This document shows positions 38,748 to 41,214 of a stretch of 64,000 nt of DNA, piece after piece. The notes beneath the pieces are model-generated. The model was not told where the DNA came from. It made no database searches and saw only the letters and a list, made by a program, of their open reading frames with translations. The position numbers and the translations under genes were made by a program. Within the stretch, counting starts at the first letter, position 1. Every line of letters starts with the position of its first letter. Source of the DNA: Parasedimentitalea huanghaiensis (GTDB lineage: Bacteria > Pseudomonadota > Alphaproteobacteria > Rhodobacterales > Rhodobacteraceae); contig NZ_WQLV01000013.1 of the NCBI RefSeq assembly GCF_009753675.1, forward strand, positions 1 through 64,000, in the 5' to 3' direction.

Positions 38748-39653
38748 TTAGAAACTATCGCCCGGCTTCATTGCAAAACCGCGCAGGAATATCTCGCGAT
38801 CCTGCGCGCCCTTGCCCGCCCGTTGCAAGCGCAGCAGTTCAACTGCCCCCGAACCACAGGCAATGGTGAGGTTTTCTGCCAACACTTCACCGGGTTCACC
38901 CTGCCCTTCGGCCAGCCTTGACGCCAGCAGTTTGACCCGCTGACCGTTCAGCTCACTCCAGGCACCGGGAAATGGTGACAGCCCACGGATCTGCCGATCC
39001 ACTTCAACCGCTGGGCGGCTCCAGTCAATGCGCGCCTCAGCCTTGTCGATCTTACTGGCATAGGTGACGCCCTCATCAGGCTGCACATCCGGAGAGAGGC
39101 CATCGAGATGCCGTAACGCAGTCACGATCAACGACGCCCCCATCTCTGACAACCGGTCATGCAGCTGCGCGGTGGTTTCCTCTTCGCCAATGGCAGTGCC
39201 TTCACGCAGCAGCACGGGCCCAGTGTCGAGCCCGGCCTCCATCTGCATGATGCAAATCCCGGTTTCTTCATCCCCGGCCATGATCGCCCGGTGGATAGGT
39301 GCAGCACCACGCCAACGTGGCAACAGGCTGGCGTGAATGTTCAGGCACCCCTTGGCAGGTGCATCCAGAATGACCTGCGGCAGGATCAGCCCATAGGCCA
39401 CAACCACCGCGACATCAGCGCCCAGCGCCGCAAACTCTTCCTGCGCCTCGGGCGTTTTCAAGGATACAGGGTGACGTACCTCTAGCCCCAACTTAACCGC
39501 ACGGGCATGCACTGGCGTTGGCCGGTCCTTCTTGCCCCGTCCCGCCGGACGCGGCGGCTGGCAATAGACGGCTGCAATCTCGTGCCCAGCATCCACCAGA
39601 GCCTCCAGCACCGGAACCGAAAAATCAGGCGTACCCATGAATATGACGCGCAT
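38748..39653 (-). CDS. fmt: Methionyl-tRNA formyltransferase
   Basis: 301 residues. The start [19 protein letters not shown], the catalytic [18 protein letters not shown] and [13 protein letters not shown] are diagnostic of Fmt, which formylates initiator Met-tRNA. A separate C-terminal domain binds the tRNA (from about 205). It follows a deformylase-like gene, separated by 54 bases that contain a palindromic repeat. Formylation by Fmt and removal by deformylases in one operon is a logical pairing. An in-frame ATG inside that repeat is rejected. Confidence 0.96.
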
Positions 39654-39707: not shown

Positions 39708-40205
39708 TCAGCCGTTCAGTTTCTTGGCCTTGCGCAACAACATGTCACGTTTGACCTTGCTCAGATGATCAAAATACATCTTGCCGTTCAGATGATCGAT
39801 TTGATGCTGCACGCTGGTTGCCTCGACACCGACAAAATCGCGCCGATCTATCTGCCCGGCTTCATTCATAAATCGCACCGTCACCGCACGCGGGCGTTTG
39901 ATCTTGGCTGACACCCCCGGCAGGTTGGGGCTGGCCTCGTCGTGCTCACGCAATTCAATCGACGCATGCAACACTTCGGGATTGGCCATCTTCACCGCCT
40001 TGCCCCGCTCGCGTGAGCCATCAACCACCGCCAGCCGCAGCATCACACCGATCTGAGGCGCTCCCAGCCCGACCCCGGGCATCGCTTCCATGGTATCCAC
40101 CATGTCCACCCAGATCGCGCGGATCTCATCGGTAATTTCAGTCACTTCGTCCGCAACAGTGCGCAGGCGCTTGTCTGGCCACGGCAGGCAGGTACGGGTT
40201 GTCAT
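39708..40205 (-). CDS. Degenerate peptide deformylase-like protein
   Basis: 165 residues with the overall deformylase fold, but two of three metal/catalytic motifs are altered. Motif 1 is GVGLGAPQ (44-51, near normal). Motif 2, normally EGCLS, reads EASPN: Ser92 replaces the metal-binding Cys. Motif 3, normally HEFDH, reads HQIDH (134-138): Gln135 replaces the catalytic Glu, though both His ligands remain. It should lack normal deformylase activity. It overlaps the upstream active-looking def by four bases (ATGA), so it is made in step with it. The frame is intact and conserved in appearance, so I treat it as a functional gene, not a pseudogene. Confidence 0.9.
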   Translation of the reverse strand: MTTRTCLPWPDKRLRTVADEVTEITDEIRAIWVDMVDTMEAMPGVGLGAPQIGVMLRLAVVDGSRERGKAVKMANPEVLHASIELREHDEASPNLPGVSAKIKRPRAVTVRFMNEAGQIDRRDFVGVEATSVQHQIDHLNGKMYFDHLSKVKRDMLLRKAKKLNG

Positions 40206-40699
40206 ATGTGTCTCTCCAGAAAGTCGGTCTCGGCCTTGGTCCGCTCTGCCGCCGTCAAATGGTCAAATGTTACCATGCCATTCAGGTGATCAAATTCATG
40301 CTGAATGCAGCGAGCTTCGAATCCGTCAAAGTCGGCCATGTGAATATCCCCCTCGGGCGCAGTCCACTGCACTGTTACGGCCTTGGGGCGCTCAACAGAC
40401 ACCAAAATACCAGGAATAGACAGGCAGCCCTCTTCCATCACGACAGGAATACGTTCGGCGGCCATGATTGTCGGGTTGATCATCGCCATGGGGGACTTCG
40501 TGCCTTCTTTCCAGGTGCAGTCCATCACAAACAGCCGCTTCATCACCCCGATTTGAGGTGCGGCCAGCCCACGCCCCTGCGCCGCATACATGGTCTCGAA
40601 CATGTCAGCAATCAGATCATCCAGATCCTCACCCTGCACAGTCTCACAGCGCTGCGACAGGCGGGCGTCCGGCCAGATCAGAATCGGCAATACGCTCAC
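40202..40699 (-). CDS. def: Peptide deformylase (second of three)
   Basis: 165 residues with all three motifs intact: GRGLAAPQIG near 43, EEGCLSIPG near 89 and QHEFDHLNG near 133. It removes the formyl group from nascent N-terminal Met using a bound metal, usually Fe or Zn. The start is GTG at 40699, overlapping the stop of the first def gene by four bases (GTGA). It has an internal Trp/Lys insertion (CTWKEGTKSP) not seen in its neighbour. Confidence 0.95.
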   Translation of the reverse strand: MSVLPILIWPDARLSQRCETVQGEDLDDLIADMFETMYAAQGRGLAAPQIGVMKRLFVMDCTWKEGTKSPMAMINPTIMAAERIPVVMEEGCLSIPGILVSVERPKAVTVQWTAPEGDIHMADFDGFEARCIQHEFDHLNGMVTFDHLTAAERTKAETDFLERHI

Positions 40700-41214
40700 T
40701 TGCGGGCCAGCTCGCGTTTCAGCTTTTGCATTTTTCGGGTGATCATCTGGCGGCGCAGAGGCTTTAGATAATCAATGAACAGTTTGCCCTGAAGGTGATC
40801 TATCTCGTGCTGCACACAGGTCGCCCACAGATCATCAAACGTCTCGCGCTGCGCGTTGCCATCGCGGTCCATCCATTCGACATCCACCAACTTGGGTCGG
40901 GTCACCTCACCGTATTGCTCGGGAATCGACAGGCAGCCCTCCTCGTACACATTGGTTTCATCCGACGAAGCCACGATAACCGGGTTGAACATCACCAGCG
41001 GACGCGGTGTTTCACCCTCTTCTTTGACACAATCCAGAGCGATTATCCGGTCCATGATACCGATCTGCGGCGCCGCCAGACCAATGCCCGGCGCGTCATA
41101 CATGGTTTCCAGCATGTCATCAGCCAGCTTGCGCAGATCATCAGTGATATCACTCACTGGGGCACAAACCTTCTTCAGGCGAGGGTCGGGATGGATCAGA
41201 ATGTTACGTTTCAT
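40696..41214 (-). CDS. def: Peptide deformylase (first of three)
   Basis: 172 residues with canonical motifs GIGLAAPQIG, EEGCLSIPEQ and QHEIDHLQG, and the basic C-terminal helix (RRQMITRKMQKLKREL) seen in the E. coli type that binds the ribosome near the exit tunnel. This is likely the main housekeeping deformylase. It is the first gene of the def-def-def-fmt run and diverges from the malY-like gene across 96 bases. Confidence 0.96.
   Translation of the reverse strand: MKRNILIHPDPRLKKVCAPVSDITDDLRKLADDMLETMYDAPGIGLAAPQIGIMDRIIALDCVKEEGETPRPLVMFNPVIVASSDETNVYEEGCLSIPEQYGEVTRPKLVDVEWMDRDGNAQRETFDDLWATCVQHEIDHLQGKLFIDYLKPLRRQMITRKMQKLKRELARK

Follow-up and report, generated by a model that had tools for sequence, protein, structure and literature searches.

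Def3, the product of the third of three adjacent deformylase genes in the window (the whole stretch of 64,000 nucleotides that was analysed), is, judged from its sequence, an old, conserved and family-wide pseudo-deformylase of Rhodobacteraceae. It combines a predicted deformylase fold and a basic C-terminal tail with fixed substitutions at the positions of a metal ligand and of the catalytic base. The reading that we prefer, with about even odds (roughly 0.5), is that Def3 is a ribosome-docked, non-catalytic factor which tunes N-terminal processing; the lack of activity, the coupling to Def1, the docking and the regulation are all presumed from comparisons of sequences and models.

The coordinates and reading frames given for the three def genes in a preliminary description of this DNA are exact, and both adjacent pairs overlap by four bases (Table 1). 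The genome (4.86 Mb) has no PF01327 matches other than these three genes, and Def1, Def2 and Def3 score 179.8, 172.2 and 132.7 bits, all above the cut-off of 22.8. That description had correctly recognised the canonical motifs II and III of Def1 and Def2 (EGCLS and QHE-DH). It was also right that Def3 has Ser92 in place of the Cys ligand (E-A-S92-P-N) and Gln135 in place of the catalytic Glu (Q-H134-Q135-I-D-H138), that both histidines of motif III are kept, and that a deformylase fold is predicted. Two other changes, Pro93 and Ser131, had been overlooked, as had fmt, with which the cluster has four genes.

Table 1. Features of the def–fmt cluster in the window.
Feature	Position	Strand	Remark
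def1, canonical peptide deformylase, 172 aa, basic C-terminal tail	40696..41214	-	motifs GIGLAAPQ / EGCLS / QHEIDH intact
def2, accessory deformylase, 165 aa, GTG start, uncharged or acidic tail	40202..40699	-	catalytic motifs intact
def3, putative pseudo-deformylase, 165 aa	39708..40205	-	150 copies in relatives; predicted deformylase fold
fmt, methionyl-tRNA formyltransferase, at the end of the cluster	38748..39653 (ATG 39653, stop 38748)	-	TIGR00460 280.7 bits, cut-off 201.5
GTGA four-base overlap, def1 stop / def2 start	40696..40699	-	
ATGA four-base overlap, def2 stop / def3 start	40202..40205	-	
Ser92 codon AGC, replacing the Cys metal ligand (E. coli Cys90)	39930..39932	-	
Pro93 codon, at the place of E. 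coli Leu91	39927..39929	-	
Ser131 codon, replacing the second Cys next to motif III	39813..39815	-	
Gln135 codon CAA, replacing the catalytic Glu (E. coli Glu133)	39801..39803	-	
Def3 C-terminal basic helix, residues 150-164, putative uL22 docking helix	39714..39758	-	model and basic positions

The comparison set consists of 160 loci, 80 from close relatives and 80 from other genera, which contain 150 Def3 copies. The close-relative loci, whose Def3 is 80–97% identical to that of the window, are the best 80 of 300 confirmed by a collection scan. The others are the clusters of 80 genomes from a PF01327 search of 198 family genomes; this sample consists mostly of the highest-scoring genomes and is not random. 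One record, L018 (JAHVJD010000009.1), is titled Nocardioides marinus and encodes a Def3 that is 86% identical to that of the window; it is probably mislabelled or contaminated.

Ser92, Pro93, Ser131, His134, Gln135 and His138 are each present in 150/150 Def3 copies, and the 215 Def1 and Def2 copies all have Cys92, Leu93 and Glu135. Column 131 is Cys in 161/161 Def1 and in 47/54 Def2. No copy with intermediate motifs occurs among the 150 Def3 and 215 Def1/Def2. Seven columns (42, 92, 93, 94, 95, 131 and 135) are conserved both in Def3 and in Def1/Def2, with different letters; motifs II and III contain five of them, and column 131 is just before motif III. The mean number of cysteines per domain is 1.0 in Def3, versus 3.8 and 3.6 for Def1/Def2. 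Motifs of the active type, EGCxS with its Cys ligand and HExxH with its Glu, are absent from all 150 Def3 copies. The conservation of Ser92 and Gln135, which the preliminary description had proposed to check, is thus complete in this set, where no intact-motif version of the same gene was found. A sequencing error was considered and rejected, since 150 other Def3 copies carry identical residues.

In deformylases, Glu133 is the general base and the amide of Leu91 helps to hold the formyl oxygen. In what we take to be the E. coli numbering, the changes of Def3 are C90S, L91P, C129S and E133Q. In the Salmonella enzyme, Cys90 is a metal ligand which is needed for activity, and a C90S copy failed to rescue growth; the substitution of the second cysteine (Cys130, presumably the same residue as C129) by serine leads to the loss of about half of the activity (PMC7683392). 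The part of PMC3101196 that deals with the changed residues covers the dynamics of Cys90 and Leu91 only. Considering the four substitutions together with the Salmonella mutants, it is therefore very unlikely that Def3 has deformylase activity.

Of the near-invariant columns, 23 of 42 in Def3 and 24 of 48 in Def1 fall in the pocket segments. These segments are about equally rich in such columns in the two proteins (23/40 versus 24/40), and the pocket of Def3 thus seems to be still under selection. This conservation, and the invariance of Gln51, Glu90, Arg104, His134 and His138 in Def3 of the 70 other genera, would also suit an enzyme with a changed chemistry or metal, in which the two histidines, Ser92, Asn94 and Gln135 form a new site devoted to another substrate or to slow, conditional deformylation. 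Altered-motif deformylases from T. brucei are active, and alternative metals have been proposed (PMC12690207). Such an enzyme is nevertheless unlikely: Def3 has simultaneous changes of the metal ligand, of the general base and at the Leu91 position, and Cys90 by itself is needed for the activity of the Salmonella enzyme (PMC7683392).

Exactly one QHQ-DH deformylase is found in 70/80 of the clusters from other genera. The remaining 10 genera have a single deformylase of the Def1 type, with one PF01327 match per genome, and no Def3; Def3 is therefore dispensable in some lineages. The order def(-def)-def3-fmt is found in 147/150 def3 loci, the exceptions being L170 (def3-def1-fmt) and L176 and L083, which have no fmt within the fetched stretch. 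The gene before def3 is a deformylase which overlaps it by exactly four bases in 108/150 loci, and the gap between the two is within −20 to +20 in 145/150. The proposal that the overlaps make stoichiometric production likely went too far, since overlaps alone are insufficient to read it, but the close packing of the def genes on which it was based is conserved across the 150 loci.

When the copies are labelled def1 or def2 according to their higher identity to those of the window, def2 is missing from the cluster in 96/150 def3 loci (57/80 in close relatives, 39/70 in other genera). Def2 is therefore not an obligate or general partner of Def3, which disfavors the obligate Def2–Def3 heterodimer that had been envisaged. 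Def3 could instead be an obligate partner of Def1 (or of Fmt), without catalytic activity, which serves it off the ribosome as a subunit or as a chaperone. The linkage of def3 to def and fmt in 147 loci, the close packing and a constraint equal to that on Def1 (see below) are consistent with this proposal, but it is quite unlikely, considering that a Def1-type enzyme occurs without Def3 in the ten genera mentioned above and that Def2 does not qualify as the general partner.

A DNA pattern for QHQ-DH matches 333/394 family genomes from 393 genera (301/347 of the good ones), and a slightly stricter pattern, QHQ-DHL, has matches in 17/380 genomes of other families of the class. None of the 18 loci with stricter-pattern matches outside the family showed a deformylase gene. 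These matches are therefore due to chance, and those of the looser pattern in the family include some chance matches too. Indeed, G059 has a pattern match although its one deformylase cluster lacks Def3; the pattern also misses variants. Four of the 198 genomes have at least two deformylases and no pattern match; their clusters were fetched, together with those of four one-deformylase genomes. L315 has a Def3 with LHQVDH, the Def3 of L316 is cut by the contig end before motifs II and III, L317 and L318 have def1 and def2 only, and L320–L323 have one canonical deformylase. Def3 with restored motifs is found in none of these eight pattern-negative clusters. In L317 and L318, which belong to two genera, a def2-like protein has a changed motif II (EERCLSIP), and no def3 is present in the fetched cluster.

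Def from E. coli docks on the ribosome via L149, K150, R153 and K157, which bind uL22, and K160 and R163, which bind 23S rRNA (PMC12690207). At the positions of K150, K157 and K160, Def3 has K or R in 150/150 copies, and Def2 (53 copies) has mostly uncharged or acidic residues at the docking positions. The R153 position is mostly Met in both Def3 and Def1 (Arg in 4/150 Def3), and the R163 position is Arg in 22/150 Def3. The mean net charge of the tail is +8.3 in Def1 (161 copies), +6.9 in Def3 (150 copies), where the tail is about five residues shorter than in Def1, and −1.0 in Def2 (−1.02; 53 copies).

The AlphaFold model of Def3 alone, a prediction that the preliminary description had suggested, has a deformylase fold (pLDDT 93.6) and a helix at residues 150–164, as in the tail of type 1B enzymes. 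Its TM score is 0.92 to 5j46 and 0.91–0.92 to several E. coli chains, with which it shares 34–35% identity. Absence of the tail helix was rejected as the feature that sets Def2 apart from Def3, because the model of Def2 also has a C-terminal helix (pLDDT 85.3); according to the models, only the charge would separate the two tails. Among the functions offered in the preliminary description, occupation of the ribosome site has the best support, in that Def3 has kept the basic tail that Def2 lost, even if the R153 and R163 positions are mostly not Arg. Another of these functions, the binding of formyl-Met peptides, is compatible with the conserved pocket. A sensor of such peptides which steers a process away from the ribosome would suit this pocket too, but is decidedly unlikely, since the basic tail of the ribosome type is kept in Def3 nearly as strictly as in Def1, and an off-ribosome sensor would not need one.

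The median pairwise dN/dS of 500 sampled close-relative pairs is 0.085 for Def3 (480 usable pairs), 0.083 for Def1 (483) and 0.111 for Fmt (477); these are Nei–Gojobori values with dS near 1 and are approximate. The ratio of Def3 is thus below 1, in answer to another check proposed earlier. For Def2 the median is 0.183 (182/250 pairs), versus 0.114 for Def3 (236 of the same 250). The pooled ratios at 0.1<dS<0.5 are 0.098 for Def3 (87 of 3240 pairs) and 0.100 for Def1 (128 of 3240). In this range Def2 is not faster (0.050, on 5 of 276 pairs), and its faster evolution therefore rests on the more diverged pairs.

The open frame of Def3 is full length (164–166 aa) in 80/80 close relatives and the domain is 159–166 residues long in 150/150 copies, detection being based on ORFs, so that def3 copies broken by a stop are harder to find. 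A tree was built with 111 deformylases, leaving out rows under 140 aa and canonical outgroup copies; besides outgroups, it includes the window, every fifth of 80 family loci and six loci with a single copy. Def3 (16 rows) forms one clade with a support of 100/100, although the bootstrap is not fully settled; its stem measures 1.02, and most of the branches inside it are short. This points to a burst of change followed by strong constraint. That Def3 is decaying after a recent duplication, which the loss of its catalytic motifs might evoke, can practically be dismissed given the changes fixed in 150/150 copies, a dN/dS of about 0.085, the full-length frame in all close relatives and the single old clade. 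The earlier view that Def3 is not decaying but is a kept inactive partner is thus strongly supported by the fixed Ser92 and Gln135 and by the low dN/dS, while calling the gene degenerate was wrong: Def3 is a stable paralog of the whole family.

If Def3 is a ribosome-docked, non-catalytic factor, it would have kept the fold and pocket of a deformylase while the substitutions of the ligand (Cys to Ser), of the base (Glu to Gln), of Leu by Pro and of the second Cys by Ser became fixed. It would be synthesised beside Def1, with translation probably coupled, and its conserved basic C-terminal helix would bind it at the tunnel exit to the uL22 site that Def1 uses, where it may compete with Def1 and perhaps with methionine aminopeptidase. 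Alternatively to competition, Def3 may hold formyl-Met nascent ends without cutting them. The sites of deformylase and methionine aminopeptidase at uL22 overlap (PMC9099147), and a docked inactive copy is therefore a plausible competitor. N-terminal protein processing would then have a conserved pseudoenzyme in Def3.

A more specific and unlikely version of this proposal is that Def3 is an anti-deformylase docked on the ribosome, both a competitor and a reader of fMet at the tunnel exit, which chooses the chains that keep their formyl group. If so, deformylation would be set by the ratio of live to dead deformylase, both translated from one message, and Def2 would be the active, off-ribosome form.

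Def3 resembles type 1B deformylases (E. coli Def, PF01327) in its predicted fold and C-terminal helix, in Gln51 of motif I, in both metal-binding histidines and in its place beside fmt, and differs from them in its four fixed changes (Cys to Ser at the ligand, Glu to Gln, Leu91 to Pro and second Cys to Ser). Type 3 deformylases are mostly weakly active or inactive, and the length of their C-terminus is not conserved (PMC5591237); inactive accessory copies occur in S. aureus and S. pneumoniae (PMC12690207). Def3 shares with these proteins substitutions in the conserved motifs and, presumably, weak or no activity (PMC12690207, PMC5591237). Unlike type 3 proteins as they are described, it has a helix similar to that of type 1B and belongs to a def-def-fmt cluster.

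Seven other families of the class have deformylase-like proteins of the Ser type (L261, L262, L270, L289, L293, L294, L299, L301 and L304), which come from nine genomes represented in the top 30 loci of a 240-genome search. Such alphaproteobacterial proteins are presumably those called "peptide deformylase-like" in Swiss-Prot (NCBIfam NF009484 and relatives). Like Def3, the nine proteins have Ser instead of Cys in motif II and a basic tail. Unlike Def3, they keep the Glu, the third His is replaced by Gln or Tyr, and the Gln of motif I by His or Met. Def3 and the other Ser-type proteins differ in how the site was lost. There is no fmt near the nine genes in any fetched stretch. In the best tree, Def3 groups with the Def1/Def2 of its own family (82/91, not flagged as well supported) and is not joined to the alphaproteobacterial deformylase-like proteins, but a joint clade is not rejected by AU tests (p 0.296, 0.315 and 0.317).

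Each of three Def3 proteins tried against NCBIfam matches NF009484 best (131.4, 135 and 134.1 bits), in all cases below its cut-off of 190. L262, which lacks two of the three metal ligands, scores 255 bits on this "equivalog" model (cut-off 190) and is therefore named peptide deformylase. Caution is required, as automatic annotation models give this name to Def3-like proteins.

Deformylase genes are clustered in 98.1% of Rhodobacterales reference species, with three copies in 62.5%, according to a 2025 survey (PMC12690207), which considers the rationale elusive. This is the same cluster as def1-def2-def3-fmt, and the gene clustering is thus already in print; the parts of the survey considered here do not report a uniform inactivity of one copy. 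No report of a conserved dead copy was found by title or abstract in the open-access literature, nor in the essential-gene literature. What is new here is that Def3 has kept a basic tail of the docking type which Def2, with intact motifs, has lost. This defines a testable split of labour between Def1 (intact motifs and docking tail), Def2 (intact motifs, no tail) and Def3 (dead motifs and tail).

Deformylase is an essential enzyme and a drug target. The position of E. coli Arg97 (column 99 in Def3 numbering) is Tyr or Phe in 160/161 Def1 copies. The Arg97Tyr substitution is linked to a lower susceptibility to actinonin in Vibrio (PMC12690207), which suggests that the main deformylase of the family may be naturally less sensitive.
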